Of a stretch of DNA of 64,000 bases, positions 21,430 to 50,747 are shown one piece after another. Positions within the stretch are counted from its first letter, which is position 1. Each line of letters opens with the position of its first letter. This DNA is from Gallionella sp. (GTDB lineage Bacteria > Pseudomonadota > Gammaproteobacteria > Burkholderiales > Gallionellaceae). The stretch is taken from assembly GCA_003153155.1 (NCBI GenBank), contig PLWV01000008.1, positions 634-64,633 on the forward strand, given 5' to 3'. The notes beneath the pieces were generated by a model. That model saw only the letters and a list, made by a program, of their open reading frames with translations. It had not been told where the DNA came from and made no database searches. The translations under genes were made by a program, and so were the position numbers.

Positions 21430-22503
21430 ATGCTGATCCAGCTTGCCGTCATGGGTATGCTGGCGGCATTGTTGCCGCTGGTAATCGTCTGGGTGTCGAA
21501 CGACACTGACAAATACCGCAAACTGGTATGGGTCACACTTTTCCTCACATTTGATTTGATCATGTTCGGCGCTTTCACACGGCTGACCGATTCAGGTCTC
21601 GGTTGCCCGGATTGGCCCGGCTGTTATGGGCAGGCTAATCCACTGCAGGCACATGCAAACATCAGTGCCGCCGAAACCGCGATGCCGACCGGCCCGGTGA
21701 CTGTCATGAAGGCATGGATTGAAATGATCCACCGCTATCTGGCAATGGGCATCGGTGTGCTAATCATCGCGTTGATGGTGATCTCATGGCGCAGGTGGCT
21801 GCAATCGGGGCGCAAGGAAATGAAATTTTCACCGCTGTTCCCGACACTGCTGTTTGCATTTGTATGTCTGCAGGGCGCTTTCGGCGCATGGACTGTCACG
21901 ATGAAATTGCAACCGGTCATTGTGACTATTCACCTGCTGCTGGGCGTGACATTGCTGGCACTATTGACATGGTTCGGCGCACGCCAAAGCGATCATCCAT
22001 CAGTGTCGCAATCGGCTGCTGCGCTACGCATACCGGCGGCACTGGCTATCGTGCTGCTGGTGATACAGATTGCACTCGGCGGTTGGGTCAGCAGCAACTA
22101 CGCAGCTCTGGCTTGCCCGGATTTTCCGCTGTGTCAAGGTGCGCTATTACCGCAAATGGATTTCGTAAATGGCTTCTCGTTATGGCGCGATCTGGGCAAG
22201 ACCGCCCATGGGGATTACCTGCCTTTCCCGGCTTTGACCGCGATCCACTGGACACATCGCGCCTTCGCCCTTGTCGTGGTGATACTGGTTGCCTGGGTGG
22301 CACTTAGAGCATTCAAAATAGACGCTTTACGCAAAACAGCACGCTGGCTATTGATCATGATCGTGCTGCAATTTGCCATCGGGATATCGAATGTGTTCCT
22401 GAAGTTACCTCTGGCACTGGCCGTGGCACACAATGGCGGCGCGGCACTTCTACTGATATTACTGGTCATGTTAAATCACAAAATCCGCTTCACCCAGCAC
22501 TGA
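21430..22503 (+). CDS. ctaA: haem A synthase (COX15/CtaA family), paralogue 2
   Basis: A 357-aa, eight-TM haem A synthase from ATG 21430 (AGGAAG upstream; the longer frame from 21355 has no homologous N-terminus). Motifs: RLTDSGLGCPDWPGCYGQ after TM1, EMIHRYLAMGIG with a haem-ligand His, SNYAALACPDFPLCQGA in the second half and HWTHRAFALVVV with the second-half His. Two COX15 homologues within 3 kb is unusual. Whether both are catalytic or one acts on another haem cannot be told from the sequence. Confidence 0.92.
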   Translation: MLIQLAVMGMLAALLPLVIVWVSNDTDKYRKLVWVTLFLTFDLIMFGAFTRLTDSGLGCPDWPGCYGQANPLQAHANISAAETAMPTGPVTVMKAWIEMIHRYLAMGIGVLIIALMVISWRRWLQSGRKEMKFSPLFPTLLFAFVCLQGAFGAWTVTMKLQPVIVTIHLLLGVTLLALLTWFGARQSDHPSVSQSAAALRIPAALAIVLLVIQIALGGWVSSNYAALACPDFPLCQGALLPQMDFVNGFSLWRDLGKTAHGDYLPFPALTAIHWTHRAFALVVVILVAWVALRAFKIDALRKTARWLLIMIVLQFAIGISNVFLKLPLALAVAHNGGAALLLILLVMLNHKIRFTQH

Positions 22504-23466: not shown

Positions 23467-24753
23467 TCATGGTAAATCCTCCTCGATGCGCACAAGTGTG
23501 CGCCGATACACTGCGATAGCGATGAGGAGCGCGTATCCGAGCAGCATGCCTTGCAGCAGCAATCCAAGTGAAACCAACCATGCTGCTGCATTCCACCAGG
23601 GTGCGAATAGTGCTGCAAGCAGAGTGCTGCGATGCAGCCACAAATGCCGCCACATCCAGGTTTCCGGGATGACTTCCTTCATGTTGGGAACGCCCCTCTT
23701 TACTCCGCCACGGAACAGATGGAACCACACCAGAAATGGGACGATCTTGTATAGCATGCCGTACATCAACGACATGGCAAAGCCAAGCAGGAATAACACA
23801 GCGGATACCGTGCCGAGACGGTCATTTTCCGGAAAAAACAGAGTTGCAAAAGCGAGCAGTGCCGCGCACAGCAGTGCCATCATACCCAGCCGGAAAAAAC
23901 TCAATGTAGCATCCGCAACGCGGCGGCGACGCTTGCTTTGCAACCAGAGTGTGGCCACGGCAAAACAGCCTGCCAAAAGCCAGAACAGGCCTTGTACAAC
24001 GATTGCAACCCAGTGCGGCATGGGTTCGAGCAGAAGGGACAGCAGGATCAACAGCAGCACGATGAATATCGCGGGAGCCAAACCGTTGCCTAACCATTTT
24101 GGATAGTTGGGTGTGAGCTGAAACATTGGCACCACTTGATAGGACACGCCGACGATCAGCAACAACACCCAACCGCCCAACGACAGGCTGATGTGGGCTG
24201 TGGCCAACTTGGCATAGGGCAACAGCGAGCCGGTGGCATAGCCGTGCGCCAGCAACATGCCTAATGCAATTGCTCCGCCGAGCGCGAGGATGGACAGCAG
24301 TATCGCAGTCTTGGTGGCATTGTGTGCGGGAGCGCGCGCCAGGCTGATCAGGCCGGCACTGATGAACGTAATAAAAGCCAGGCCCAATATCGGCCAGGCA
24401 AGATCGAGCAATACCGGCTTGCCCAGCAGGAAACCGGCGGGCAGCAGCAGTGCGCCCGATAGCAGCGGCAGGAAGGTGAGCCATGAGGTCAGCCGTGATG
24501 CCGGCATAGAACTGCCGATCACCACCGGCAGGATCTGCTGTATCGCCCCGAGCATGATCATCGCCATGAACCCCAGCGTGATGCAGTGCGTCGCGGCAAG
24601 CAGCGCAGGCGAGTGGATATCGGCAAATGGATTGTCTGCGCCGGACACCAACGTCAGCGCAGCCAGTAGCAGGAACAGCGGGGCGGCAGTAAAGAAGCGC
24701 AGCGGCACAGAAATCGGCGGTGCCTGCTCGGTATTGAGCGAGATGATTTTCAT
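23467..24753 (-). CDS. 12-TM NnrS/haem-copper-oxidase-like membrane protein
   Basis: A 428-aa polytopic protein with about 12 TM helices. Conserved polar positions inside helices: AATHCITLGFMAMIMLGAIQ, KLATAHISLSLGGWVLL, and VPFLVWFHLF. The pattern recalls subunit I of haem-copper oxidases and NnrS, but no complete metal-ligand set can be assigned. It is the third gene of an operon with a hemerythrin and a DUF2249 protein (4-bp overlap), downstream of the dyad operator at 25514. A truncated second copy of its C-terminal part is at 41866-42237. A role in NO handling is inferred from context. Confidence 0.75.
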   Translation of the reverse strand: MKIISLNTEQAPPISVPLRFFTAAPLFLLLAALTLVSGADNPFADIHSPALLAATHCITLGFMAMIMLGAIQQILPVVIGSSMPASRLTSWLTFLPLLSGALLLPAGFLLGKPVLLDLAWPILGLAFITFISAGLISLARAPAHNATKTAILLSILALGGAIALGMLLAHGYATGSLLPYAKLATAHISLSLGGWVLLLIVGVSYQVVPMFQLTPNYPKWLGNGLAPAIFIVLLLILLSLLLEPMPHWVAIVVQGLFWLLAGCFAVATLWLQSKRRRRVADATLSFFRLGMMALLCAALLAFATLFFPENDRLGTVSAVLFLLGFAMSLMYGMLYKIVPFLVWFHLFRGGVKRGVPNMKEVIPETWMWRHLWLHRSTLLAALFAPWWNAAAWLVSLGLLLQGMLLGYALLIAIAVYRRTLVRIEEDLP

Positions 24754-28812: not shown

Positions 28813-29193
28813 ATGAAACGTAGCCCTATCCTGCAACCGCTGTCGCGAGAGCACCACACCGCACTTACGCTGGCAAAAGCCAGTGAGCGCGCAGCGCTAT
28901 CCGATGATGAGGCTTTGGTGAGTCAAACTTGTCAGCGTGTGATCCGGGCATACGCGAATGAACTGGAGCCGCACTTCCAGTTCGAGGAAGTATCACTGCT
29001 GCCGCTGCTGCACAGCACAGAAACACAGCCGCTGGTCGAGCGCACCTTGGCAGACCATCAACAGTTGCGCGGGCTGCTCGATGCCCTGCGACAGAACGAT
29101 GCCGGGGCATTGGATCGTTTCGGAAAATGCCTGTCGGCGCATGTCCGATTCGAGGAGCGCGAGCTTTTTCCAGTGCTCGAAAGTTTGTTGTAG
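28813..29193 (+). CDS. hemerythrin HHE-domain protein
   Basis: A 126-aa helical-bundle protein. Candidate di-iron ligands: SREHHTALTLAKASE, HFQFEEVSLLPLL, ADHQQLRGLL and HVRFEERELFPVLE, which match the repeated HxxxE pattern of HHE domains. It starts 8 bp after the FmdE-like gene and precedes nnrS by 20 bp. Its placement next to nnrS supports a role in NO tolerance or Fe-S repair. Confidence 0.88.
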   Translation: MKRSPILQPLSREHHTALTLAKASERAALSDDEALVSQTCQRVIRAYANELEPHFQFEEVSLLPLLHSTETQPLVERTLADHQQLRGLLDALRQNDAGALDRFGKCLSAHVRFEERELFPVLESLL

Positions 29194-29213
29194 CGAGAGT
29201 GAAAGACCAGCGC

Positions 29214-30386
29214 ATGGGAAACAAAATATATCTGCCTACATATCCCCTCTGGCTGGTCGGCTTTCGTCCGTTCTTTGCACTGGCGATTTTATCGGGATTG
29301 AGTCTGCCAGTTTTGTGGGCATTGATCTATTCCGATGTGATTGCAGCACCGCAGACTATGTTTACCATGGTGCAGTGGCACGCACATGAAATGTTCTTCG
29401 GCTTCGGCTGGGCGGTTCTGGGCGGTTTTCTGCTGACCGCAACCAAGAACTGGGTCGGGGTGCGCGGCTACTCGGGCTACGCGCTGATGTTCCTGGTGGT
29501 GGCATGGCTGTTTGAGCGGGCCGGGATGTGGTTCGGAGGAGCTTGGCCGCCGCTGCTGTTCCGGATTTCCAACAACCTGTTCATTGCTGCCATCGTTGCG
29601 ATGCTGATGTGGACGCTGATACGCAACCGCAAGGACGGCTCCTACCGCGACAACTACTTCCTGTTGCTGATGCTCCCGGTTTTTCTGCTGAGCAAGAACC
29701 TGATGCTCAGTGCCGATTACTACCCGATCGGCTGGAGCATGGCGGTAGGGCTTTTCCGCATGGCCTTTCTGGTGATGCTGGAGCGAACGCTGACCCAGTT
29801 CATGAAGGGCGTTTTTCAGGTTTCGATTTTGAATAATCCGCTGCTGAACAGGGTGATCAAGATGCTCGGACTGCTGCTGGTGTTCGCAAGCCTGATGCCG
29901 CCACAAGTGTCAGGCTGGTTCGCACTGCTGCTCGCGTGTCTGCTGGCAGGCCGCTTCATCTACTGGAATCCGCAACTGGCGATGCAGCGGCTCGACATCG
30001 GCATCATGTATCTCGGTTACATCGCGCTCGTATCACAACTGCTGATCGAATTTCTCAGGCAGATCGTCCATCCTGAATGGGCGGTATCCGTGTCCATCCA
30101 TGTCTTTACCTTCGGTGTGATGGGTCTGATCATCCCCGCTATGCTGATCAGAATATCGAAGGGGCACACCGGAAGAAAAGTGGTTTTTGACACGCTAGAC
30201 AAATCCGCCCTGAGGGTCATGATGCTGGGTTTTGTGCTGCGCATCATCGCACCGCAGCTTTATCCAGCAGGCTACACACTCTGGATTTATCTCGCGGCGA
30301 CGTGCTGGTTTATCTGTTTTGCGCTGCTCGCATGGCGGTATATTCCCTTCCTGATGCAGCCCCGGGTTGATGGCAAGGAGCATTAG
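29214..30386 (+). CDS. nnrS: NnrS family haem-copper membrane protein
   Basis: A 12-TM protein (390 aa from ATG 29214) of the NnrS family, which protects metabolism against nitrosative stress in denitrifiers. Family segments: YPLWLVGFRPFFALAILSG, QWHAHEMFFGFGWAVLGGFL (with the conserved HAHE motif), LTATKNWVG and HVFTFGVMGLIIPAMLIRIS followed by KGHTGR. The longer frame from 29127 overlaps the HHE gene and is unlikely. Last gene of the plus-strand run; it is convergent with the cytochrome b-MvhD gene, with 42 bp between stops. Confidence 0.93.
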   Translation: MGNKIYLPTYPLWLVGFRPFFALAILSGLSLPVLWALIYSDVIAAPQTMFTMVQWHAHEMFFGFGWAVLGGFLLTATKNWVGVRGYSGYALMFLVVAWLFERAGMWFGGAWPPLLFRISNNLFIAAIVAMLMWTLIRNRKDGSYRDNYFLLLMLPVFLLSKNLMLSADYYPIGWSMAVGLFRMAFLVMLERTLTQFMKGVFQVSILNNPLLNRVIKMLGLLLVFASLMPPQVSGWFALLLACLLAGRFIYWNPQLAMQRLDIGIMYLGYIALVSQLLIEFLRQIVHPEWAVSVSIHVFTFGVMGLIIPAMLIRISKGHTGRKVVFDTLDKSALRVMMLGFVLRIIAPQLYPAGYTLWIYLAATCWFICFALLAWRYIPFLMQPRVDGKEH

Positions 30387-30428: not shown

Positions 30429-31982
30429 TCAACCACCCAAACCCCGTTGCAGGCCGGAGCGGAACGACTCCAATTCGGATTCCAGTTCCTTGAGATCGGC
30501 GGAAGCAGCCCAATATTGCCTGATGCGATCGCGCTCGGCGCGAATGCGCAGGCGCGGCTCCCGTTGAGCAGTCAAGCGCCGCTCTGTCCACAGCACACCC
30601 AAGCGGTGGTAACAATCGTTCTGGCGGCAGCCGGTGACCAATACGCCTTCGACATGATGCTCATGCAGCGCATACTCAATGAAGGAGGGCGGCAACATGG
30701 CAATACATGGCAGGCTTAATACGGCCACATTTTCACTGCGCAATTTCTGAATATTCGCCGCATTATCACAGCCAAAAACCATGATACGAACATCGCCCTC
30801 CAGCTTGGCCATGTCATTCATCATGGCGGTGCGGAGCCCGGATATCGGCAGCGATGGCATTTCGATTCCGCTTACATATCCGGCTTCGCTCCTGAAAGCG
30901 TTTGATGAGGGACACGCCCCTGTGCAAATACCGCAACTTACGCAACGGTCCGGTACAACCACCGCCTCTTCCAGAAAGTGCATGCCATCGCTGCGCGGCC
31001 TCATCACCACCGCCTCATAGGGACAATCGGCGACGCAAAGCCTGCATCCGCTGCAATCCTTAAGGTGTACTTCGGCGACAGGTATCTGCTTTCGCTTGGG
31101 TATCTGCTTATGTCTGGTTGGAAGCCACGGCAACACGCTTAGCAGCACGCTGAGCCCGATTACCAACGCCCATACCTCCCCTGCCGACCAAACATCCAGC
31201 AACGGATGAATAAACAAATAAAACCAGTCTATGTCAATGTTGACTGGCTCGATCCCCATATCTGCCGACCCCTGGCTCAGCACCGGCTTTACCAATGCCA
31301 GAATCAGCAGCGTCAGCAGCATTCCAAGCGCAAGCCGGCGTCGTGGATTAACCACCGGCTTGCTGATGCGCATGATATGTATCCAGAGGAAAAACAGGAT
31401 GAACAGTGGAATGGTCACATGTGCGAACGATATCAGCGAGAAGAAACGGTCATTGAGCACTTCCCGCGAAATAAAACTTTGTGACATCGGCTCGCTGAAT
31501 ATCGGCAACCAGTCGAACCACTCCATCGTAGCGACGACAGAATATTGAGCCAGCTTATCCCATACCATCCAGTAACCATTGATGCCGGCGGCAAATATCA
31601 TCCATAACAGCAGCACACCCGTGACCCAGGCAAACCATCGTGCTCCGCGATAGCGCCCCAGAATGAATTCACGCAACAGATGTAGCACCATGACCACGAC
31701 CAGCGCATCGGAAGCATACCGGTGCAGGCTGCGCATAACCCCGCCGAGATACCATTGCTCGTGGGTGAGATATTCAACAGAAGGGTAGGATAATTCGATG
31801 CCGGTCTTATAAAAGGCATAGATATAGGCGCCGCTGACAACCACCACCCAGAAAAAATAGAATCCCAGCGCACCAAGATAGTAAAGCGGGTTGAGATCAT
31901 TGCCGAAAATTTTATTCAGGATACCTTCAAGCCGAAGCAGTACCCTGCGCACGAATGACTCAGTGGGAATGGGGATGATCAA
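30429..31982 (-). CDS. cytochrome b fused to 2[4Fe-4S] ferredoxin and MvhD-like domain
   Basis: A 517-aa fusion. Residues 1-285: cytochrome b N-terminal domain with four haem ligands, His87/His101 and His188/His202, for two b haems. Residues about 303-360: two [4Fe-4S] motifs, CSGCRLCVADC (C310, C313, C316, C320) and CVSCGICTGAC (C347, C350, C353, C357). Residues about 398-465: an MvhD/FrhD-like domain with FGC405, PC426 and GCRQNDC (C452, C457), the fold that links hydrogenase to heterodisulfide reductase. It could pass electrons between a cytosolic donor and membrane b haems. Last gene of the minus-strand respiratory cluster. The partner and direction of electron flow are unknown. Confidence 0.85.
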   Translation of the reverse strand: MIIPIPTESFVRRVLLRLEGILNKIFGNDLNPLYYLGALGFYFFWVVVVSGAYIYAFYKTGIELSYPSVEYLTHEQWYLGGVMRSLHRYASDALVVVMVLHLLREFILGRYRGARWFAWVTGVLLLWMIFAAGINGYWMVWDKLAQYSVVATMEWFDWLPIFSEPMSQSFISREVLNDRFFSLISFAHVTIPLFILFFLWIHIMRISKPVVNPRRRLALGMLLTLLILALVKPVLSQGSADMGIEPVNIDIDWFYLFIHPLLDVWSAGEVWALVIGLSVLLSVLPWLPTRHKQIPKRKQIPVAEVHLKDCSGCRLCVADCPYEAVVMRPRSDGMHFLEEAVVVPDRCVSCGICTGACPSSNAFRSEAGYVSGIEMPSLPISGLRTAMMNDMAKLEGDVRIMVFGCDNAANIQKLRSENVAVLSLPCIAMLPPSFIEYALHEHHVEGVLVTGCRQNDCYHRLGVLWTERRLTAQREPRLRIRAERDRIRQYWAASADLKELESELESFRSGLQRGLGG

Positions 31983-32101
31983 TTCAGAACCCTTGCATCA
32001 ATACCATCGGCATCACAGCTGAAATAATTGGTTGAATCATCTCTTCAATGACCGGCGCCATCATATAATGTGCGTGTGTATACTATTTATGGGGCATTCA
32101 C

Positions 32102-32299
32102 TTGGAAGTCATTTACTACACACTGATCGGTGGCGGCCTCTACTTCATGTCCGACTGGATACTTGATCGCATAGAAATCTCACGCGAAGAACGTTTTCAG
32201 AATCGCGGCTTACGCAGTCTCGTTTTCTTTGTGATTATTCTGGTGCTGGCATTTATCTCGTTCGGTTTTATCAATTATTTTGTACATCCCTTGGAATAA
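32102..32299 (+). CDS. small two-TM protein
   Basis: A 65-aa frame with a TTG start (LEVIYYTLIGGGLYFMSDWI) and two hydrophobic segments around a charged loop DRIEISREERFQNRG, ending FGFINYFVHPLE. GGGG lies upstream of the start. It is in the 372-bp gap between the minus-strand cytochrome b-MvhD and haem-copper-like genes, on the opposite strand. The patterned hydrophobicity supports a real gene; no family can be named. Confidence 0.55.
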   Translation: MEVIYYTLIGGGLYFMSDWILDRIEISREERFQNRGLRSLVFFVIILVLAFISFGFINYFVHPLE

Positions 32300-32354
32300 A
32301 AAAAGAGCTGTTATTGATTCATAGGGGTTGTTCATAATAATTTGTCATTCCGAG

Positions 32355-33779
32355 TTACCTCAACCGCCGCATGGCTTTGAAAACCACCACCAGGAATATG
32401 ATGCCGCCGATGACGGCGATCAGTCCGCCAAAGCCCATCAATCCCATGCCTGCTTTCTGCGCGAAGCCATGCAGTTCTTGCGCGGCTCCCGCAACCTTGC
32501 GCTGCACGCCATAACCGCCGGACCACAGCAAACCAAGAAGGTGGAGCAGTTGTCCCGCGCCATATGTGTAAGGCATCAGGGTTGCCCATTTTAAGTCCGG
32601 CTCACGATAACCGAGGCGTGGCAGCAGATGGAAGGTCAGCCCCATGAAGGCCAGACTGATTGCCCCTCCGGTTCCATGATAGTGTGCAGTGATGATCGTG
32701 TTGCTATCCTTGATCATCAGGCTTATCCCGCCACCAATCGCAAACAAGAGCATGGACGAAAGCAATGCCGCGCGTTGTGGACCTGTCGCTGCAGTGCGGT
32801 CGCCCGCCACTATTCCGTAAAGAATGGCCAAACCGATGGGCACGGATGCAAAGGAACCGCCAACCTTCATCAACTGGGTGAACTGTCCCATATAATTACC
32901 CATATAATCACCCATCATGCCAACAAAGGATAGGTAAATAACGGGGACATACAACACCGGCAACAGTCCCAGCATAAACATGATTGACGCCACCCGCGGA
33001 GTTAACGGTATTTTCGCGCCACACGCTTCTGCCAACCACAGCCAGCCAGCCAACATCAACAGCGAATAAGTGAACTGAAGCACATGACCACCGCCCCAGA
33101 ATAGCAGGTCATAATATTGCGTGCTGTCGTATGTGCCAGGAATCATGATGTATGACCAGACAAAAGCGGCCAGCGCAAACAGCGTGGAAATAGCAGCGGC
33201 AAAAAGCCCGATGCGTATTGAGCCTTCCCCTCCCTGCCACAGATTTGCAGTGGGTACCGCTATCAAGCTGCGCAGCACCAGCAATGTTATGCCAACAGCA
33301 AAGACGATCAATCCCGTCATAAAGAAAGTGCTATGAATGACCGGCACATAATTACTCATCACCGGTATACCTGTCTCAACAAAAGGAGACAGGACGATCA
33401 TCGCGGCACCAACGGCCGCCAGCACCAGGGCCAGCCAGCCTATGCCAATAAATCTGGATGATGAATTCAGACTCCACAACACGCCGGCGAATGCCAGAAA
33501 CCACAGCAACACTGACAGATCAACATGCACCACAAGAGCGGTATGAAAAAAATCAATCCAGGGGAAAATATCCTGTATATAAGGGGTGCGCGAAAGTACC
33601 AGAAGAATGGCAAACAGCCCGGCACCTAACAGCGAAGCGATGCCTAGCCACAACCAGCCTGAAGCCAGTTTACGAGCGGCAGTCGAAGGCAGGGAAAGCG
33701 TAAATTCTCGCCAAGATTTTCCTTCACCGGTCAGGTCCTGTCCTTCTTTGATACCTGCTTGGTGATATGCTGAACTCAT
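32355..33779 (-). CDS. haem-copper-oxidase subunit I-like protein lacking the helix VII His pair
   Basis: A 474-aa, 12-TM protein of the haem-copper superfamily. Visible ligands: His85 (VVHVDLSVLLW, low-spin haem), His232 (FWGGGHVLQF, helix VI metal ligand), and His366/His368 in helix X (TAHYHGTGG). The expected helix VII His-His is replaced by residues of YLSFVGMMGDYMGNYM, so a normal CuB/FeB site cannot form. There is also no Tyr four residues after His232. It may be a divergent NO reductase, an NO-binding sensor or a quinol-linked module. The flanking 172-aa anchored protein and two cytochrome b fusions are its likely partners. Confidence 0.8.
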   Translation of the reverse strand: MSSAYHQAGIKEGQDLTGEGKSWREFTLSLPSTAARKLASGWLWLGIASLLGAGLFAILLVLSRTPYIQDIFPWIDFFHTALVVHVDLSVLLWFLAFAGVLWSLNSSSRFIGIGWLALVLAAVGAAMIVLSPFVETGIPVMSNYVPVIHSTFFMTGLIVFAVGITLLVLRSLIAVPTANLWQGGEGSIRIGLFAAAISTLFALAAFVWSYIMIPGTYDSTQYYDLLFWGGGHVLQFTYSLLMLAGWLWLAEACGAKIPLTPRVASIMFMLGLLPVLYVPVIYLSFVGMMGDYMGNYMGQFTQLMKVGGSFASVPIGLAILYGIVAGDRTAATGPQRAALLSSMLLFAIGGGISLMIKDSNTIITAHYHGTGGAISLAFMGLTFHLLPRLGYREPDLKWATLMPYTYGAGQLLHLLGLLWSGGYGVQRKVAGAAQELHGFAQKAGMGLMGFGGLIAVIGGIIFLVVVFKAMRRLR

Positions 33780-33788
33780 ACGTTATCT

Positions 33789-34307
33789 TTATGTTGCATT
33801 ATGGGTCTTGAAAATAAATCCGCCGTTTCCTTCTTTGAAATCAATCAACATGATGCGCCCCGGGTCAAGGTTAACCGTTTCCTCATGCACATAGTTGAAA
33901 TGATCCCCTCCATTGTCGTTCAGGCGCGCCTTCAGGGTATGGGTGCCCGCTTTTACCGGAATGCGCCGGTAGATACTGGAAATGCTGCTGTGTGACAACC
34001 CGCCCGGCTCCAATACCACATGATAGAGCTGCTCCCCGTCCATCTCCAGTTCAACCACCACATTTTCCCGTTCGCGCGGACATATCGTAGTCACTTTGCG
34101 CTGGTACATCGGCAGTTTGGCAAGCTCTTCGGGGGTACGTTCGCGACATGCTCCTTTGGGCTTGCCAGCATGGCTGAAACTCAGTTTGATCAACGCCTCT
34201 TCAGGTGGCAGGTGAGTATATGCCGGAAAAGTGGAGAAATAGCCAATCACTCCCATAAACAGGGCATAAAGCAATCCCTGTCCAATATATTGCAATGGCT
34301 TAGCCAT
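33789..34307 (-). CDS. membrane-anchored extracytoplasmic subunit of the cytochrome b/haem-copper cluster
   Basis: A 172-aa protein with one N-terminal TM segment (about 10-26) and a beta-rich periplasmic domain. Conserved-looking features: LSFSHAGKPKGACRERTPEE with a Cys, TTICPRERENVVVELEMDG with a second Cys, and HTLKARLNDNGGDHFNYVHE with several His. It starts within the 3' end of the cytochrome b-FNR gene (8-bp overlap) and ends 10 bp before the haem-copper-like gene, so it is probably a complex subunit. Family not recognised. Confidence 0.75.
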   Translation of the reverse strand: MAKPLQYIGQGLLYALFMGVIGYFSTFPAYTHLPPEEALIKLSFSHAGKPKGACRERTPEELAKLPMYQRKVTTICPRERENVVVELEMDGEQLYHVVLEPGGLSHSSISSIYRRIPVKAGTHTLKARLNDNGGDHFNYVHEETVNLDPGRIMLIDFKEGNGGFIFKTHNAT

Positions 34308-36240
34308 GCGTCACTCCCTCAGAGGATACCGATGTTTCCGCAACCGGAGGTTTGTGACAAGCAACAAAAAAACCATCCGCAAAATACTGATCTTTCGGCA
34401 ATCCCTTGGCCATGAATGGCGCACGACCTGCCTCGACCATCTCGGGTGAACCGCAAGCATATATCTGATAGCCGTCAAGTTTTTTATAATCCTGCAGGAT
34501 GGCTTCAGTAACCAACCCGGTTCTGCCATGCCAGTCATATTCCGGTTTCGGCTCGGACAAAACCGGTATGAACTTGAAATTATCATGCTCCTGCTGCCAT
34601 TTTTCCGGCAAATCCCCAAGGTAAAAATCAGCCGGCGTTCTGGCGCCCCAGTACAACACCATGGAACGGTTTAGCCCGACCTTAAAGGCATGCTCCACTA
34701 TGCTCTTGATGGAGCCGAAACCACATCCGCCTGACATGAAGATAATGGGTTTATCGCTGTCTTCATGCAGGAAAAAACTACCAAACGGGCCTTCAAGTTG
34801 CAGCACATCTCCTACTTTCATCCCATCGAAGACATGACTGGTAAATTTGCCGCCCTTCACCAGGCGGATGTGCAGGTGCAAGCGATCTGATTCATGCGGT
34901 GCATTGGCGATGGAGTAACTGCGCTTGGTGCCATCATCCAGCTGCACAGCAACATACTGTCCGGCGATAAAGCTCATCTGTTCATCACCCTCAGGCCGCA
35001 ACTCAAGCAGCATCACATCCTGCGCCGCCCGTACCATTTTTTGCACGCTGAAACTCATGGTCTTAACCGGGAATCGCCTCAACTCATCGACCTCATGGCA
35101 CTCTATGGCCAGATCGGATAGTGGCTTGGCGCAGCAGAACAGGGCAAGGCCCTCCTCCTTTTCCGCATCGGTGAGCACGCCCTTCTGGTAAATACCATAA
35201 TCGACCGTGCCTCTCAGTATCTTGCCCTTGCAAACACCGCAAGCTCCGTCACGGCAAAGGTAGGGCAGGTTCAATCCCTGGCGCAACGAAGCCTCGAGTA
35301 TGGTTTCGCCTCTCCTGGCGGTAACCATATGTCCACACGGAACAGAGGCGATCTCATATTCGTCCTTGCCGCGTTTGTTCCCTCCCAGGAACGGCAGCAA
35401 TAAAGCAAAGACCGTAATCCCGCCCGTCAGTGCCCATACCTTGCCCGGACTCCAGGAATAGAGTAAGGGGTAAGTCAACAGGTAGAACCAGTCCAGATTC
35501 AGAATGGATGGTGAAGAGTTCAAATCCGCTTGCCCCTGGCTTAATGCCGGCTTGATCAGCGCAAGCACAACCATGGACAGGGTCAATCCGATTTTAAGCG
35601 CTCTTGGCGGCGAAGTCTTTGCCCCCGGAACACGCTGGGTGTGTATCCAGATCAATGCAAAAGCAATCAACGGAATGCCCAAATGAGCAAACGAAAGCAG
35701 GGAGAAGAAGCGGTCATTCACACTGCCCTGCTCCAGGAAATTACGCGCCAGAGGGGCAATAAAAATCGGCAGGTAGTCCAGCCACTCCGCGGTCGCTATC
35801 GCAATAAATTGCGCCAGCTTATCCCAAACCAGCCAGTAGCCGTTTATACCGGCCATATACACCAGCAACAGCACCGCGATGCCGGTATACCATGAAAACC
35901 AGCGGAAATTACGGTATCGGTCAAAGGCAAAATTACGCACCATATGCAAAACGGCAGCCAGTATCATCCCGTCGGAAGCATAACGATGCAGGCTGCGCAT
36001 GATGCCGCCCAGATACCATGGCTGATGAGTTATATGCTCCACCGACAGGAAAGCTTCTTCCACGCCGGTCTGGTAAAAAGCATAAATATAAAAACCGCTG
36101 ACTACGATGATCCAGAACATCCAGTAGGTGATCGCGCCCAAATAATAAAGCGGATTCAATGTTGGCCCAAAAATGCCATTCAGCGCGCTCTCCAGACGCA
36201 GAAAAATGCTCTGAGCAACTCTTTGTATAAGTTTAATCAA
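34300..36240 (-). CDS. cytochrome b fused to [2Fe-2S] ferredoxin and FNR-type reductase
   Basis: A 646-aa fusion. Residues 1-285 are a cytochrome b domain like that at 30429-31982, with His85/His99 and His186/His200. Residues about 296-385 form a plant-type [2Fe-2S] ferredoxin (C329, C334, C337 and the C369/C370 pair). Residues about 390-630 form a ferredoxin-NADP reductase domain with FAD motif RSYSIAN, NAD(P) motif GGCGFGSIKS and C-terminal YACGSPEMV. This predicts NAD(P)H to FAD to [2Fe-2S] to b haems in one polypeptide. The gene is co-directional with the haem-copper-like and 172-aa genes. Confidence 0.88.
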   Translation of the reverse strand: MIKLIQRVAQSIFLRLESALNGIFGPTLNPLYYLGAITYWMFWIIVVSGFYIYAFYQTGVEEAFLSVEHITHQPWYLGGIMRSLHRYASDGMILAAVLHMVRNFAFDRYRNFRWFSWYTGIAVLLLVYMAGINGYWLVWDKLAQFIAIATAEWLDYLPIFIAPLARNFLEQGSVNDRFFSLLSFAHLGIPLIAFALIWIHTQRVPGAKTSPPRALKIGLTLSMVVLALIKPALSQGQADLNSSPSILNLDWFYLLTYPLLYSWSPGKVWALTGGITVFALLLPFLGGNKRGKDEYEIASVPCGHMVTARRGETILEASLRQGLNLPYLCRDGACGVCKGKILRGTVDYGIYQKGVLTDAEKEEGLALFCCAKPLSDLAIECHEVDELRRFPVKTMSFSVQKMVRAAQDVMLLELRPEGDEQMSFIAGQYVAVQLDDGTKRSYSIANAPHESDRLHLHIRLVKGGKFTSHVFDGMKVGDVLQLEGPFGSFFLHEDSDKPIIFMSGGCGFGSIKSIVEHAFKVGLNRSMVLYWGARTPADFYLGDLPEKWQQEHDNFKFIPVLSEPKPEYDWHGRTGLVTEAILQDYKKLDGYQIYACGSPEMVEAGRAPFMAKGLPKDQYFADGFFVACHKPPVAETSVSSEGVTHG

Positions 36241-36317
36241 CGTATGACTCCAAAAAAAATAACTCCAGGCAATTGCTGTGCATACCCGGCTGACAAGGGC
36301 ATAGACTAGACTTATAT

Positions 36318-37235
36318 TCAGGCATGGTCCGGATAATTCCGCTTTTGGTTGCGGCGACGGTACTCAACCACGATCCACGCTGCAATAAGAAATAAGACAA
36401 GCATATCCAGTCCCATCCCATAAAAGAGACTGTAGTCTGTCGTGTATTTTCCCGTTTTTGGGTCATACACCGTGCAAAACAGCCGCACGCTTTTTGCGAT
36501 ACCGGCAAAACCTGACTCTGCTGTCGCGAAGTTGTAAATTGGATCTGTGATCTTGACGTTGTAAATCATATTCTTTAAGGGTTCGAGCAGTGTCCTGTTG
36601 TCAAATTCATCCCCGTAAATCTGGAGACTAACCTTACCTTTTCCGTCAACAAAGGTAGTCTGGGTTATGTGATTGAAACCTCCCTCCGGAGAAGGGAAAA
36701 AAACAAATCCCAAATCCTTACTCAATTTTTTAATCGTTTTCGAGTCGGCACTAACGAATTCCCAGTTGGGCAGTTTCACATCCATGCGCTTGGCAAAATC
36801 GTCCATCGCCTCCGGGGTATCATTCTCGGTATCGAAACCTATCGTCAAAACTCCGAAGCTGTCCGGCCCCAAGGCATCCCGGGACAGTTTGAGCGCGCTT
36901 AAATTCCGGGTCGTGGTCGTGCAGACGGACGGGCAATGAGTGTAGATCATGTTGATAACCAGAGGCTTGCCCCGGTAATCGGATAGGCGCACTTTACGCC
37001 CGCTGCGATTCAGAAAAGTGTAATCACCCAGCTGATTGCCTATCGCACTCTGACTTATTTTCAGAGCTTCCTTTTCATCAAAAGACTGAGCGATTGAATT
37101 TTCCGGCTGCACCTGCAATTTTGCCGCCGAAACAGTGGCTTTATACAGCTTTACACCATCGGTATCCTGGGCCAAGGAAGGCATGGCTGCAGATATAAAA
37201 ACTGCAAAACTTAGCGGTATCAATTGGTGGCGCAT
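36318..37235 (-). CDS. SCO1/SenC-family protein with C-terminal membrane anchor
   Basis: A 305-aa protein: signal peptide (about 1-22), thioredoxin-like SCO domain with CPSVC copper motif (in IYTHCPSVCTTTT) and distal His in GGFNHITQTTF, then a C-terminal TM helix (about 275-292) and basic tail. SCO proteins insert copper into CuA sites. Placement between cyoE and the cytochrome b-FNR gene, in a cluster with a CuA subunit, fits assembly of that enzyme. The norSY-senC arrangement of ammonia oxidisers is comparable. Confidence 0.9.
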   Translation of the reverse strand: MRHQLIPLSFAVFISAAMPSLAQDTDGVKLYKATVSAAKLQVQPENSIAQSFDEKEALKISQSAIGNQLGDYTFLNRSGRKVRLSDYRGKPLVINMIYTHCPSVCTTTTRNLSALKLSRDALGPDSFGVLTIGFDTENDTPEAMDDFAKRMDVKLPNWEFVSADSKTIKKLSKDLGFVFFPSPEGGFNHITQTTFVDGKGKVSLQIYGDEFDNRTLLEPLKNMIYNVKITDPIYNFATAESGFAGIAKSVRLFCTVYDPKTGKYTTDYSLFYGMGLDMLVLFLIAAWIVVEYRRRNQKRNYPDHA

Positions 37236-37489
37236 GATTTGACTTTCATGAAATCTTAACTCATCAAAATGATGCCAGCCGAGTCTAGCCTAATGAATTC
37301 GTTCTGCATTTACACAAGGGTTGATCGAAAAATACCCGACTATTTTAATAAGAGACATCGAAAATACAAGCCTGATCTTGGATAGCATCTCCAAAACATT
37401 TGCACCCAAAAAAATTGTTTTAGGAATGACCAAAGATATCCCGTCCGCGCGGATGCCCAGACGAGATGCATGGTCGAACAAAATGGAAA

Positions 37490-38347
37490 TCAGGTGGCGA
37501 AACCCGCTTCCAGCATCAGTGCGAATAACAGCACGCTAAGCTGCACCATCGATGCAAAAAAATTGGACATTGCCGTTTGTCTGGTGGGATTGCGTACCAA
37601 TTGCACACTTTTAATCAGGAAGTACCCTCCTCCCGACAAGGCGCCGGCGAGATAAATCCAACCTAAACCGTAGTACACCGGCAAGAGGGAAACCAGCACC
37701 AGAAGTACGGTGTGCCCCAATATAATTCGCGCTGCTTTCTGATCGCCTTTTACCACTGGCAGCATGGGTATCCCCGCTTCGGCATATTGATCACGATAGG
37801 CTATCGCCAGACTCCAAAAATGCGGGGGTGTCCACAGGAACAACACCAAAGCCAGCAGCCCGGGAAGCGGACCGATTGATGGATCGACTGCAGCCGCACC
37901 GGCGAGCACCGCGAAGCTCCCGGCCAATCCGCCGAATACGATATTCAGCCAAGTGCGCCGTTTCAGCCATACCGTATAAACAATCGCGTAAGTGAATGCA
38001 CCGAGGAAAATGTTCAGTGCCGTCATCGCATTAAGCGCAAAGGCAGCAGACATAACCGCAACCAGAAGCAGCAACCCGATTATCACCAGCCACTTATGAC
38101 CATGCTGAAAAAATCCAGTCACGAACGGTCGGTTTCTTGTGCGCGGCATTTTTGCATCCAGGTCGCGTTCGCTGTATTGGTTGAAGGCTCCGGCTGCCGC
38201 TGATCCCATCATTACCGTCACAAACAAAACCAGAATTTTCCATATCGGCAAGGACTGCCCCGGCGTAATCGCCATGCCACCCAGCGCGGCCAAAGCAATC
38301 ACAAAACCAATGCGCAACTTAAAAACGTTGATGTATTGTTTAATCAT
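37490..38347 (-). CDS. cyoE: protohaem IX farnesyltransferase (haem O synthase)
   Basis: UbiA-family membrane prenyltransferase converting haem B to haem O. The 285-aa protein has about nine TM segments and both prenyl-diphosphate Asp motifs: NQYSERDLDAKMPRTRNRP in loop 2-3 and AIAYRDQYAEAGIPMLP in loop 6-7. A 254-bp gap without a gene separates it from the SCO gene. With the two ctaA genes upstream it can supply haem O/A to the haem-copper enzymes here. Confidence 0.96.
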   Translation of the reverse strand: MIKQYINVFKLRIGFVIALAALGGMAITPGQSLPIWKILVLFVTVMMGSAAAGAFNQYSERDLDAKMPRTRNRPFVTGFFQHGHKWLVIIGLLLLVAVMSAAFALNAMTALNIFLGAFTYAIVYTVWLKRRTWLNIVFGGLAGSFAVLAGAAAVDPSIGPLPGLLALVLFLWTPPHFWSLAIAYRDQYAEAGIPMLPVVKGDQKAARIILGHTVLLVLVSLLPVYYGLGWIYLAGALSGGGYFLIKSVQLVRNPTRQTAMSNFFASMVQLSVLLFALMLEAGFAT

Positions 38348-38428
38348 TGTCTCACGTCCGTGTCTTCTTTCTCCGCGATCCGGAGAAGGGGTTGGTTGAT
38401 TTTTCCGGATTTTTGCTTCGGAATACTT

Positions 38429-38518
38429 CTAACCTAAACCGTGCAACCCATGGAGTCGCCTCCTGCTACAGTTCTCTGTCTGCACATACCGGGTTTGCAC
38501 ATTTCTGGTTCAGGTTAG
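38429..38518. repeat. inverted repeat between cyoE and the B-type oxidase gene
   Basis: CTAACCTAAACC (38429-38440) and GGTTCAGGTTAG (38507-38518) form 12-bp arms with one mismatch around about 66 bp. It lies in the 253-bp gap upstream of cyoE. It may be a small mobile repeat or an RNA stem separating the catalytic subunit and cyoE transcripts. Single copy in the window. Confidence 0.5.
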
Positions 38519-38600
38519 AGGTCTCCCTCTGACTAAATCTCTCCCTTTAGTACAGGAATCAGGGAAGGGCGCCGCAGCGCCCTCCCATCATCTTATTGCT

Positions 38601-40352
38601 TTACGACAGCGTCCATATAGTGGACAGATACTTGAAGTTAATGAAGTAGTACAGCACGAGGGTCGCGAACAGAATCATGGCAAGCACAAAAGTACCCGGC
38701 GCTTCGAAGCCACCGATACCGATATGTTTCTTTCCGGGAACGGTGGCACCGGCATCAGCACTATTAACCCCACCTTTTTTCGCAAACACAACATCGGCGT
38801 CTTCCACTTTCGGCCATGGCGCGGAACCTTCCGGAATGCGCTCACCCGCGAAAACGGATGCCAGTACGATCAGGATAAACATGACTCCGCCAACCGCCAT
38901 GACCACGCCGCCGAGTTCGCCTATCGACAACATAGCCTTGCCGAGCTCAGGATATTGATAAGCCAAAGATTGACCGGCATAGGTTATATCCGCTTGACGG
39001 CGCTGTAAGCCCATGGTGCCGGCGCCCATTATGGCAATAGCGAAGGTGAAGGAGCCGAGGCTGTAAATGTAGGGCTGCCATTTCGCCCACCCTGCCAGAG
39101 CCACCTTGCGCTGGAACACCACCGGAATCAGATAATACGTAACCGCCATGAAAGCCGTGGTAGTACCGCACACCACCGTGCCATGGAAATGGCCCGGCAG
39201 ATACATGGTGTTGTGAATGATCATGTTGATTTGCTCCACACTCATCACCACACCAGTTATACCGCCGATGAAACCGAAGCCGATCAACGACAGGAACATG
39301 CCGGAAAAAACCGGGTTGCCCCAAGGAGCCTTGCGGAGCCAGGTAAATAGGCCGGTATCAAGCCCTTTCTTGCGTTGAGCGACTTCAATCGAACCGGGGA
39401 CAGTCAAACCATGGATCAGGCTGGCCAACACCGCGAGGTAAATCATGTAACTGGTGTTGAAAATCTTCCAGGTGGAACTCAACCCCGGATCAGACAGCAG
39501 GTGGTGCACCGAACCGAGGTTCAGGAACAGGATATACAGCAGGAACGCACCACGGCTCACCTTCTCGGACATCGGCTTGGCGCCAAATACCAATCCCGCA
39601 ATGAGATACCAGATGGATATGTGGACCACCACGTTGATCTGTTGCGAGGTGTGGCCGAACGCCCACCAGATGACCCGGTACATCATCGGATCGATGTGGC
39701 TGATCAGCCCCACGCGCCAGAGAAAAGTGGGGATCAGGATAATCGCGCCGGCAGCAATCGTGAAAATGGCACATATGCTGGCCGTTACGGCACCGAAGAC
39801 CACCAGCGGAAGCGATCCTTCACCATAGGTTTTCTCTTCCTTGGCAATCACCAGCGTGCCGAGAAACACGAAGCAGCCGATCAACGCACCCACGGCAAAC
39901 AGGATCAGTCCCAGATAGAAGTGTGGGGCCGCTTCCAGTGGCGGATAGGAGGTCATCATCACGCTGGAATTGCCCTGCACTATTGCCACGAAGGTCATGA
40001 GCGCACCGATGATCATCAGCCAGAACCCCAACCATGCCCAGCGCGGTGTCGCTATCCGACTCCCCAGCAGGTGCGAGCAACAAAAATACAGCACGGCTAT
40101 TTCAAAGAAGATGATCCATACCATCAGCGCAACAACGCCATGCCCCGTCAGGAACAGGTAGAACATCTCTGGCTTGAGCAACTGCACACCCGGCATTCGG
40201 GTCAGCGCCACACCGAGACCAAAAAAGCCGCCTATCAGCAGGAACACCACTGCTGCAAATGCATTCGCCTTTACCAGGTTGTTGGCCGTTCTATGAATCT
40301 TGAGGCCGGACACCGGGTCGACGCGAAAATCAGACATTGTTGTCGTCGCCAT
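38601..40352 (-). CDS. B-type haem-copper catalytic subunit, NO-reductase-like (NorY/sNOR-like)
   Basis: A 583-aa protein with 12 or more TM helices. Haem and metal ligands: His71 (TGHGVVALMVW), His234 (WWAFGHTSQQINV), His283/His284 (GSVHHLLSD), His388 and His390 (LPGHFHG). The helix VI motif is GHTSQQ instead of the oxidase HPEVY, so the cross-linked Tyr is replaced by Gln; loss of this Tyr is a hallmark of NO reductases. Together with the CuA subunit immediately upstream (6-bp gap) and a SenC gene, it resembles the norSY-senC (sNOR) systems of ammonia oxidisers. NO reduction is inferred; an unusual O2 reductase remains possible. AAGGAG precedes the start. Confidence 0.88.
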   Translation of the reverse strand: MATTTMSDFRVDPVSGLKIHRTANNLVKANAFAAVVFLLIGGFFGLGVALTRMPGVQLLKPEMFYLFLTGHGVVALMVWIIFFEIAVLYFCCSHLLGSRIATPRWAWLGFWLMIIGALMTFVAIVQGNSSVMMTSYPPLEAAPHFYLGLILFAVGALIGCFVFLGTLVIAKEEKTYGEGSLPLVVFGAVTASICAIFTIAAGAIILIPTFLWRVGLISHIDPMMYRVIWWAFGHTSQQINVVVHISIWYLIAGLVFGAKPMSEKVSRGAFLLYILFLNLGSVHHLLSDPGLSSTWKIFNTSYMIYLAVLASLIHGLTVPGSIEVAQRKKGLDTGLFTWLRKAPWGNPVFSGMFLSLIGFGFIGGITGVVMSVEQINMIIHNTMYLPGHFHGTVVCGTTTAFMAVTYYLIPVVFQRKVALAGWAKWQPYIYSLGSFTFAIAIMGAGTMGLQRRQADITYAGQSLAYQYPELGKAMLSIGELGGVVMAVGGVMFILIVLASVFAGERIPEGSAPWPKVEDADVVFAKKGGVNSADAGATVPGKKHIGIGGFEAPGTFVLAMILFATLVLYYFINFKYLSTIWTLS

Positions 40353-40358
40353 TATTAT

Positions 40359-40916
40359 TTACTCCTTAACGTAGATTCTGCCGAGCATCGTGTGATGCCC
40401 GACCGCGTCGCCGCCACCGCAGTATTCACCACATAATATACCGTAGGTGCCGGATTTATTGGGGGTCACAGTGGTAACCTGCTCGTAACCGGGATACACC
40501 TGCATGTTGATGTTCTCGGGCTGCAATGAAAATCCATGACCCACGTCAAGCGAAGACAGGTGCAGACGATAGGTCTTCCCCTTTTGCAGCTCGAAAATGG
40601 GACGCCATTGCCACTGCATGCCGGCCAGATAAATATCACTGCCGGGAGGAGGCATCACGACATCTTCACCGCTTGCCTCATCCTTGCGGACGGGATATTT
40701 CGTCAGTTGATCCGCCAGTTTTATGGAGTAAGCCTCGGGGGTGGTCCGATAGGCCTCGTTTTTCATGTTCTGATTCCCGATCCAGTGCCAGGCAATCATC
40801 CAGCCGAACATGAACAGACACCATAAAAATGCAATCGTAATCCATATTATCTCGGTGCGTTCGATCGGTTCGCGGCCCCAGTCACGATTGGTTGGGGTGG
40901 TATAAGAATTTCCCAT
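40359..40916 (-). CDS. CuA subunit II of the B-type haem-copper enzyme (NorS-like)
   Basis: A 185-aa subunit II with one TM helix (about 23-45) and a periplasmic cupredoxin domain. CuA ligands: His in DVGHGFSLQ, the Cys pair in CGEYC, and His/Met in GHHTMLG. The loop between second Cys and His is GGGDAVG, four residues longer than the usual CxxxCGxxH spacing, so the CuA site geometry may be altered. It directly precedes the catalytic subunit and accepts electrons from a cytochrome c or cupredoxin donor. Confidence 0.9.
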   Translation of the reverse strand: MGNSYTTPTNRDWGREPIERTEIIWITIAFLWCLFMFGWMIAWHWIGNQNMKNEAYRTTPEAYSIKLADQLTKYPVRKDEASGEDVVMPPPGSDIYLAGMQWQWRPIFELQKGKTYRLHLSSLDVGHGFSLQPENINMQVYPGYEQVTTVTPNKSGTYGILCGEYCGGGDAVGHHTMLGRIYVKE

Positions 40917-40970
40917 TTTCTATTCCTCCTTTTATTATTTAATATTATTTAACTAGACAAGCGCCGCTGT

Positions 40971-41129
40971 TCACTTGGCCAAGGGTAGGGCGAGCACTTC
41001 CAAACACCCCCACAGCACATAAAACACAGTAGGTACCGTGATGCCTAAAAACAGCAAAAGAAAGTTGTCCTCCAGCACCCTTTGCAGGACGGTAGGTTTA
41101 AAACTGCTTGTTGAAGTTGATTCTGACAT
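40971..41129 (-). CDS. small single-TM subunit (IIa-like) upstream of the CuA subunit
   Basis: A 52-aa frame starting MSESTSTSSFKPTVLQRVLE with one TM helix (about residues 22-47, ending LALPLAK). A strong GGAGGGG lies 6 bases before the ATG. It is 54 bp upstream of the CuA subunit on the same strand. B-type oxidases such as ba3 carry a comparable single-helix subunit IIa; assignment by position and topology only. Confidence 0.65.
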   Translation of the reverse strand: MSESTSTSSFKPTVLQRVLEDNFLLLFLGITVPTVFYVLWGCLEVLALPLAK

Positions 41130-41307
41130 GATTTGCCCCTCCCTTAATCATTGATGGCTGATGCCATTGATGGTTGATAAAAAACAACTGCACTAAACAC
41201 CTAAACAAAACAGATAGCCATAACTTCCGGGTAATGCATTATTTAGAGACTTAAAGACTGCCTTTATACCTATTGTTGTTCGGGCACATTTACACTCAAT
41301 AAGGTGT

Positions 41308-41454
41308 TCAGTGGCCAATCAACCTGAACACACCGACACTGATGAAAACCGCCACTCCGACACCCAACACCACGATCAATAGTAAAAATTTGTTGTGCAG
41401 CATCTGCTGCATGAAGGAAACTAGAGTATTACCAGCCTTAGATGATGATTCCAT
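41308..41454 (-). CDS. small single-TM protein, first gene of the respiratory cluster
   Basis: A 48-aa frame starting MESSSKAGNTLVSFMQQMLH with one TM helix (about 22-42) and ending VFRLIGH. GGGAG is 8 bases before the ATG. It resembles the next small gene in layout (polar Ser-rich N-terminus, then NKFLLLIVV versus DNFLLLFLG), so the two may be related subunits. It is 178 bp upstream of that gene; the dyad operator at 41686 is 232 bp upstream. Confidence 0.55.
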   Translation of the reverse strand: MESSSKAGNTLVSFMQQMLHNKFLLLIVVLGVGVAVFISVGVFRLIGH

Positions 41455-49681: not shown

Positions 49682-50154
49682 GGGAGCCTCTAAAAATTCA
49701 GGGTTCGCCCAAATGCCCCACCAGGGGACGCCGATCCGCTACGGGCAAAAGCAGCCCGTGCGGAATCGCCAGCTAGGCGCGGAAAAGGGGTAAGCAGGCA
49801 AGCCCGTAGCGGCTGCTCGCAAAAAATTTTAGTTCCGGCTAACCTAAAGGTTCCCTTACACTGAAACTTCGTTTCGCCGCGCCGCATATGGGTTATATGT
49901 AAGCAAGAAATTTTTTACGCAACGCAGCATAACCAGCCACTTGGTTGCCGTTAACCAGCGGCTTATGTCACCATCTTTGGGTGACTTAGCCGAATGGTTA
50001 TGCAAAGCCTTTTGGCAACTTATAACCAACCACTTGGCAACCGTCTTTCGGGTGCCCGGCCAAAAGTTCTTCGGCTGGTTGCCTAGTGGGATGGCTAGTT
50101 GTTTCACCAGTAGTTTCATCAGTTGGGGTGAAATGTGGATTTTTAGAGATTCCC
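49682..50154. mobile_element. MITE-like element copy B (family F1), inverted and interrupted
   Basis: Left end GGGAGCCTCTAAAAATTC, right end GGATTTTTAGAGATTCCC. The body matches the complement of copy A (3969-4166), including GGGCAAAAGCAGCCCGTGCG, up to GTAAGCAAGAAATTTTTTAC. It is split by an inserted F2 array (49928-50121) between AACGCAG and TTGGGGTGAAATG. The last base of the diheme cytochrome stop codon (TAG, 50154-50156) is the first base of the element. It fills most of the 572-bp gene-free stretch upstream of nadK. Confidence 0.75.
49928..50121. repeat. palindromic repeat array (family F2) nested inside MITE copy B
   Basis: Two head-to-tail units: the first begins ATAACCAGCCACTTGG and includes TTATGCAAAGCCTTTTGGCA; the second begins ATAACCAACCACTTGGCAAC and contains the 26-bp core CGGGTGCCCGGCCAAAAG. 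The second unit forms a stem CACTTGGCAACC / GGTTGCCTAGTG and ends TAGTTTCATCAG. Nesting shows it arrived after the F1 element. Confidence 0.8.
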
Positions 50155-50738: not shown

Positions 50739-50747
50739 CTCATCCCG

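Follow-up and report, generated by a model that had tools for sequence, protein, structure and literature searches.

A Predicted eNOR-Type Nitric Oxide Reductase and Its Recurrent Cytochrome b Companion in a Gallionella Gene Cluster

Gene Content of the Cluster

The window analyzed in this study (64,000 nucleotides from a 2.75 Mb Gallionella sp. genome; GenBank assembly GCA_003153155.1, contig PLWV01000008.1) harbors a cluster of ten open reading frames (ORFs), all on the minus strand, that combines a heme-copper enzyme assigned here to eNOR, a nitric oxide (NO) reductase family, with two cytochrome b fusion proteins and a 172-aa protein. These ten genes had been listed in an earlier reading made from the letters and ORFs of this DNA (the sequence-only reading), and the ORF list together with Pfam and NCBIfam matches bears that inventory out. 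The first two, read along the minus strand, are indeed small proteins with a single transmembrane (TM) helix by eye: a lineage-specific one of 48 aa (41308–41454), with homologs in 17 loci that all belong to the Gallionella-type clade, and one of 52 aa (40971–41129), positioned 5′ of the gene for a CuA subunit (subunit II; 40359–40916). The latter matches COX2 with 19.0 bits (cut-off 22) and NCBIfam CoxB with 30 bits (below cut-off), and its CuA ligands (CxxxC, His, and Met) can be seen by eye. Catalytic subunit I, a B-type heme-copper protein (38601–40352; COX1, 223.5 bits), is followed by the heme O synthase CyoE (37490–38347; TIGR01473, above cut-off) and a SCO/SenC copper chaperone (36318–37235; SCO1-SenC, PF02630). 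The four remaining genes encode a cytochrome b fused to a [2Fe-2S]-FAD-NAD(P)H reductase (the FNR fusion; 34300–36240; Cytochrome_B, Fer2, FAD_binding_6, and NAD_binding_1), the 172-aa protein (33789–34307; no Pfam or NCBIfam match), a degenerate heme-copper-like protein of 474 aa (32355–33779; weak COX1 match, 20.4 bits against a cut-off of 34.8), and a second cytochrome b fused to 2[4Fe-4S] and MvhD [2Fe-2S] domains (the MvhD fusion; 30429–31982; Cytochrome_B, 4Fe-4S domains, and FlpD/MvhD).

Genes in stretches fetched from other genomes (stretches, or loci, are numbered L, and genomes G) were located by six-frame profile search. The same gene order was seen again in Gallionella-type contigs, in those of other Nitrosomonadales, and in gammaproteobacterial contigs, which argues that the arrangement is not a product of chance. 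The closest named relatives at the locus are mostly Gallionella, along with one metagenome-assembled genome of 'Candidatus Ferrigenium' (Gallionellaceae iron oxidizers).

Identity of the Heme-Copper Enzyme

An alignment with ba3-type oxidases covers most of subunit I (best PDB match, E = 9.7e-51), and the GHTSQQ motif of the subunit stands opposite GHPVVY/GHPIVY of those enzymes, so that the active-site Tyr, reported as missing in the sequence-only reading, is truly absent. Its position (helix VI, His+4) is taken by Gln, and Gln238 is present in 16 of 16 orthologs (alignment A5); the candidate assignment to B-type (ba3) oxygen reductases, which carry the Tyr, was rejected. Table A4 of PMC8756737 lists Gln as the active-site residue of eNOR and Asn as that of sNOR, and because Gln is thus the published mark of eNOR, we assign the enzyme to this family on its sequence. 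The sequence-only reading had likened these genes to norSY-senC (sNOR) of ammonia oxidizers, which likewise combines a CuA subunit, a B-like subunit I, and SCO/SenC (a gene set taken here from the description in that reading, not from sequence); this label was dropped in view of the Gln, where sNOR has Asn.

As in the eNOR described in PMC8756737, a CuA-type subunit II gene lies directly upstream of subunit I, and a small ORF lies before that; the near-obligate cytochrome b fusion (to MvhD, FNR, or a third kind of domain, CPR) and the anchored 172-aa protein distinguish the clusters described here. A CuA match occurs in 64 of the 66 eNOR genomes among the fetched loci (a biased sample). In 72 of 82 CuA loci, the CuA gene is preceded on its own strand, at a distance of no more than 400 bases, by a homolog of the 52-aa gene. 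Four of the remaining ten give no such match, and in these the CuA gene borders the end of the stretch or contig. B-type oxidases have their subunit IIa gene in this same position upstream of CuA (PMC3128077), and the 52-aa protein is, by its position and predicted helix, a candidate subunit IIa of eNOR.

Cytochrome b Fusions and Their Exchangeable Tails

The FNR-fused cytochrome b has about six TM helices (by eye) and four heme His, and its cytochrome b domain is identical to that of the MvhD fusion at 150 of 283 residues (53%). Across the relatives, the heme His (H87, H101, H188, and H202, in helices II and IV, as in bc1/b6f) are invariant in 95 of 95 cytochrome b domains, and residues D252-W253 are found in 94 of 94, near the place of the PEWY motif of bc complexes (although they are not PEWY itself). 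Because this Asp-Trp pair is kept at such a place, the cytochrome b may well have a quinone site. The best family scores are to ExtP (100 bits, below the cut-off of 290) and a b6 PDB chain (E = 4e-21), and in these scores and the four heme His the domain resembles the cytochrome b of b6f and of the selenite/tellurite Ext operon, but here it is fused to MvhD, FNR, or CPR, and the cluster offers it neither a Rieske nor a cytochrome c/f partner. Likewise, the C-terminal order of 2[4Fe-4S] and MvhD is that of HdrA2/MvhD (NF040770, 71 bits; cut-off 1100), with the cytochrome b replacing the N-terminal HdrA part. The eight Cys of the [4Fe-4S] domains and the four of MvhD are conserved without exception in 60 of 60 MvhD fusions, the [2Fe-2S] ligands of the latter domain being C405, C426, C452, and C457 (PF02662, 50.4 bits, above cut-off). 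A heme-copper enzyme is also combined with a cytochrome b in SoxABCD and SoxM of Sulfolobus, whereas the cytochrome b of the present cluster bears a cytosolic redox domain; membership in SoxABCD was rejected (SoxC model NF041076, 36.6 bits; cut-off 740).

Three kinds of cytochrome b tail occur among the loci: MvhD, [2Fe-2S]-FNR, and a diflavin (CPR) reductase. In all 19 of the loci L036–L054 there is an FNR fusion or part of one, and 14 of them also have an MvhD fusion; four of the other five stop at a contig end, and in L054 it is absent within 7 kb. In the five gammaproteobacterial loci L055–L059, the MvhD fusion occupies the place of the FNR fusion. Within the fetched stretch, the MvhD fusion is the only one in L055, L057–L059, L064, and L069, the FNR fusion is the only one in L066, and both are present in the window, L063, and L068, while L056 (on the same contig as L114) has an MvhD fusion plus the third kind, cytochrome b-flavodoxin-FAD-NAD(P)H reductase. 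In a tree of the cytochrome b domains (79 of 95 rows after near-copies were dropped, rooted at the midpoint only), the MvhD rows of L050, L051, and L053 fall inside the FNR clade and the sole CPR row falls among MvhD rows, and this intermixing indicates that tails have been exchanged between cytochromes b.

The tree thus rules out that the two cytochromes b of the window are mutually unrelated; with the identity given above, they form one family. The four genes from 30429 to 36240 also recur together in other genomes, and the proposal of the sequence-only reading that these genes belong to a single system withstands both comparisons. As a separate observation, G005 has its cytochrome b-FNR split into two overlapping frames (L081:4709–6641).

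The 172-aa Protein

The AlphaFold2 model of the 172-aa protein (pLDDT 87) consists of an N-terminal helix and a beta-sandwich, for which there was no Foldseek match at E ≤ 0.001; the sequence has only two matches in the PDB, both at chance level (E = 0.4 and 0.68). Cys54 and Cys76 are invariant among the 21 rows of alignment A2. The protein would be anchored in the membrane with its domain outside, and we take it as periplasmic. Its gene accompanies the cytochrome b at the core place of the cluster, since there it follows either the FNR or the MvhD fusion; in clusters with both fusions, it usually comes after the FNR one, with the MvhD fusion placed behind the heme-copper-like gene. It also lies directly downstream of the MvhD fusion in nine of nine loci in which that fusion sits outside the fetched eNOR stretch. 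In two genomes of one genus, the cytochrome b, MvhD, and 172-aa parts are fused in frame (L133, and L135 with a frame of 697 residues), and the order of the parts fits the inferred topology of a tail inside, a helix, and a domain outside.

Co-occurrence of eNOR and the Cytochrome b-MvhD Fusion

In a class sample of 369 genomes, drawn evenly and scored for eNOR with A5 at E ≤ 1e-60 and for the MvhD fusion with A6 at E ≤ 1e-70, eNOR occurs in 35 genomes, the MvhD fusion in 34, and both in 33. This near one-to-one co-occurrence (Fisher odds ratio about 5500; p = 1.5e-43, which is too small given that the genomes are related) extends over 26 families to which the 35 eNOR genomes belong, and it speaks against the view of the sequence-only reading that the genes from 30.4 to 36.2 kb form a separate membrane complex. 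The exceptions are two genomes with eNOR only (G364, in which it lies at a contig end, and G461, with a weak eNOR match) and one with the MvhD fusion only (G315, 77% complete).

A phylum sample of 398 genomes includes 30 with eNOR, counting the window's own, and 20 of the other 29 places were fetched. The MvhD fusion and the 172-aa gene are present in 11 of these and not in the other nine, some of which are cut by contig ends. Twelve eNOR genomes were searched whole because the fetched stretch showed no cytochrome b close to eNOR, ran into a contig end, or gave a weak eNOR match; nine of them have the MvhD fusion elsewhere (three of the nine matches contain one stop). The partnership with a cytochrome b recurs in nearly every eNOR-bearing proteobacterium examined. 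It extends to the Alphaproteobacteria, where a Defluviimonas plasmid has the order small ORF, CuA, eNOR, cyoE, SCO, cytochrome b-MvhD, 172-aa type gene, and hemerythrin.

The Degenerate Heme-Copper-Like Protein

The 474-aa protein has the fold of heme-copper subunit I (AlphaFold2 pLDDT 80.9; best Foldseek match E = 3e-8, to aa3 subunit I, TM-score about 0.7), while a sequence-profile search of the PDB yielded no chain apart from a single match at chance level (E = 0.19). Absence of the helix VII His pair, already noted in the sequence-only reading, is confirmed: in a profile alignment, H283/H284 of eNOR stand opposite V280/I281. Residues H85 (helix II) and H366/H368 (helix X) occupy the positions of the low-spin and high-spin heme ligands, H232 occupies that of one CuB ligand, and all four His are present in every aligned row with a letter at that position. 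The protein therefore belongs with the heme-copper superfamily by its fold and heme ligands, and lacks the three-His CuB/FeB site; as judged from these residues, it probably binds two hemes but not CuB.

Among the relatives, 27 of 28 eNOR genomes have the heme-copper-like gene, and in the 28th (G045, which has only a CcsA-type paralog) the contig runs out within the 172-aa gene of the cluster. The heme-copper-like gene is also present, with no accompanying eNOR match, in three genomes, G043, G044, and G051, and in two of these it lies on a short contig. In the class sample it is found in 28 of the 35 eNOR genomes and in 18 of the 334 others; besides the window's own, 45 genomes have it, of which 40 places were fetched and two genomes were covered through their eNOR place. 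Five clusters (L154–L157 and L159) contain eNOR, SCO, the MvhD fusion, and the 172-aa gene but not the heme-copper-like gene, and four of these also have no cyoE at that place.

In a tree of this family (80 of 82 rows, L059 and L070 being omitted as short; midpoint root only), the genomic contexts are clustered without forming single clades, and the CcsA rows lie apart. One branch, from several families including Sedimenticola and Motiliproteus, has heme O/A synthase genes (ctaA, cyoE) and genes for A-type oxidases as neighbors on the other strand (L060–L062, L132, L139, L142, L143, L146, and L152). A distant branch lies directly beside CcsA, a cytochrome c assembly gene (L065:7956–9908, L070:2101–3276, L151, and L153), and the L065 protein is in one frame with TPR repeats. 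In the sequence-only reading, electrons were thought to pass to this atypical heme-copper center. With two of the three CuB ligands gone, the gene absent from five otherwise full clusters, and other copies found among A-type oxidase or CcsA genes with no cytochrome b partner in the stretch, the protein is unlikely to be the required electron acceptor, and we set that role aside. It may instead be an accessory two-heme protein, perhaps for heme handling or gas binding.

A Possible Electron-Entry Unit for eNOR

These observations are best accommodated, with a probability that we put at about 0.6, by an eNOR with a dedicated cytochrome b electron-entry unit and the 172-aa protein, in which electrons pass to CuA and on to NO. 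The eNOR itself would consist of IIa, the CuA subunit, and subunit I, matured by CyoE and SCO. The electron-entry unit would comprise a two-heme, b6-type cytochrome b with an interchangeable oxidoreductase domain on its cytoplasmic tail, together with the 172-aa protein and its outside domain. Electrons from cytosolic carriers would enter one cytochrome b copy through MvhD and 2[4Fe-4S] and the other through NAD(P)H, FAD, and [2Fe-2S], with quinol as an additional or alternative source, and the two b hemes would carry them across the membrane to CuA and the eNOR binuclear site. There, NO made by the neighboring copper nitrite reductase, NirK (17235–18401, minus strand; TIGR02376, above cut-off), would be reduced to N2O; the NirK, NnrS, and nirS neighborhoods make NO reduction likely. 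Invariant ligands back the parts of this path, and we infer the links between them, the direction of flow, the topology, the substrate, the role of quinone, and the union of the parts in one physical complex.

Several results weigh against this proposal. No Rieske or cytochrome c/c1/f gene is present among the ten cluster ORFs, to which this search was confined, so that there is no evident route from heme bL to CuA, and no cofactor motif is visible in the 172-aa protein. Among the 12 genomes searched whole, the eNOR-matching G525, G364, and G461 have no MvhD fusion; the sampled genomes are not independent samples; and in G182 a lone cytochrome b-[2Fe-2S]-FNR (L194:5583–7571) lies away from eNOR with no 172-aa neighbor. 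Furthermore, of the 11 Thermus and Thermomicrobium plasmid records with an eNOR match, three were examined, and in none of these was a cytochrome b or a 172-aa gene matched within 8 kb of the eNOR relative. GHxxQQ is found in these Thermus and Thermomicrobium sequences, as it is in Defluviimonas, and because the former occur without the partner nearby, eNOR chemistry need not require a cytochrome b, which seems to have been added in the proteobacterial lineage. Finally, at the thresholds used, none of 111 loci has a NirK match and a single one has an NnrS match.

Nor are the two units always linked, and their separation in some genomes would also suit two separate, co-selected enzymes that make no contact: an eNOR that depends on cytochrome c, and a quinone reductase of cytochrome b and the 172-aa protein that, fed by NAD(P)H or an MvhD-linked donor, keeps the quinone pool reduced under NO stress. 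This arrangement is possible, if clearly less probable than a dedicated entry unit. It draws on the likely quinone site at the Asp-Trp pair, on a Thermus eNOR copy that adjoins nirS and cytochrome c-552 genes, and on the genomes in which the units lie apart, on two contigs in G005 and clearly away from each other (distant or on another contig) in G493, G503, G506, G521, G529, and G540. The near one-to-one co-occurrence and frequent adjacency, however, exceed what a shared stress role usually produces, and it would be hard to assign a function in a simple quinone reductase to the 172-aa protein, whose domain would lie outside. A reversed or bifurcating use of the same proteins, in which quinol is oxidized outside and one electron goes to CuA, eNOR, and NO while the other passes through bL and bH to MvhD, FNR, or CPR, appears doubtful. 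A b6-type cytochrome b with an Fe-S or flavin tail and a high-potential partner is suggestive of such chemistry, the genome itself carries an HdrA2-like/MvhD pair elsewhere, and the named relatives, Gallionella and Ferrigenium, are iron oxidizers, which need reverse electron transport and, as autotrophs dependent on it, would be aided by the reduced cytosolic carriers made in this way; on the other side stand the lack of a Rieske-like domain and the fact that CPR-type and FNR-type domains normally oxidize NAD(P)H. It is correspondingly improbable that eNOR of Proteobacteria forms the end of a new respiratory supercomplex in which quinol electrons are split, one passing through CuA to NO and the other through the b6-type cytochrome b to a swappable cytosolic domain (MvhD, FNR, or diflavin) that makes low-potential carriers. 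In iron oxidizers and other lithoautotrophs, NO reduction would then drive reverse electron transport.

Less probable still is the model of the sequence-only reading, of which the recurrence of the downstream genes as a set and the kinship of the two cytochromes b have stood, and the norSY label, the separate complex, and the heme-copper acceptor have not. The frequent order SCO, cytochrome b, 172-aa gene, and heme-copper-like gene, and the presence of these downstream genes in G043 (71% complete) with no eNOR gene upstream or elsewhere, are in keeping with an independent complex that ends in the atypical heme-copper protein, but the five clusters without that protein, its lost CuB ligands, and its other copies in oxidase-assembly or CcsA contexts oppose it.

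Relation to Described NO Reduction Pathways

The route through eNOR to the greenhouse gas N2O is little studied, and its electron donor is usually assumed to be a soluble carrier. If a dedicated entry unit operates as proposed, a near-obligate membrane partner with interchangeable cytosolic entry domains would alter the view of how NO reduction is wired in Proteobacteria. We found no published description of eNOR combined with swappable cytochrome b genes, in a search that did not cover the main eNOR paper; passages of PMC10734462, PMC12622760, PMC8114936, and PMC8756737 mention eNOR or its absence without this cluster. Within the Gallionellaceae, Hoover et al. report eNOR in four of six narGH-bearing members (PMC10734462), and 'Ca. 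Ferrigenium straubiae' is reported to have no canonical nor gene, an unknown NO dismutase being considered in the same paper (PMC12622760). In its relative 'Ca. Ferrigenium altingense' (L041), we found the CuA, eNOR, cyoE, SCO, 172-aa, and heme-copper-like genes and both cytochrome b fusions, and the cluster thus bears on the fate of NO in nitrate-reducing iron oxidizers.

Genomic Context

Convergent with the cluster, on the plus strand, lies a gene for an NnrS-family, NO-related protein (29127–30386; PF05940), and a second NnrS-like gene can be seen by eye (23467–24753; no NCBIfam match). In view of the counts given above and of nirS-like genes in 23 of the 111 loci, NirK and NnrS are not conserved neighbors, and the kind of nitrite reductase varies. 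A nirS-like gene is in the same stretch in five of the six loci in which the MvhD fusion and 172-aa gene are clearly away from eNOR; two of these five (L195 and L201) were checked by Pfam. An FNR-type box upstream of the cluster found no support: the one site (41174) has a mismatch, and the window has four such boxes against 2.6 expected, with as many in 32 of 100 shuffles.

A soluble partner for the MvhD tail may lie in the HdrA2-like/MvhD pair of the genome. The two remaining long heme-copper genes of this genome resemble ccoN (L001, above cut-off, and L002, ccoN-like; cbb3-type), and so heme A, if made, would serve eNOR. Two CtaA-like heme A synthase genes in the window (19341–20393 and 21355–22503) have weak matches far below cut-off. 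Elsewhere in the genome, on contig C26 (about 133 kb), a stand-alone protein of 176 aa matches the C-terminal part of the COX1 family (L005:1465–1995), and a second COX1-like stretch about 4 kb away contains stops. Several small CXXCH-motif genes and a cytochrome b561-like gene (by eye) lie at 50154–53486 of the window, possibly as an electron-transfer island.

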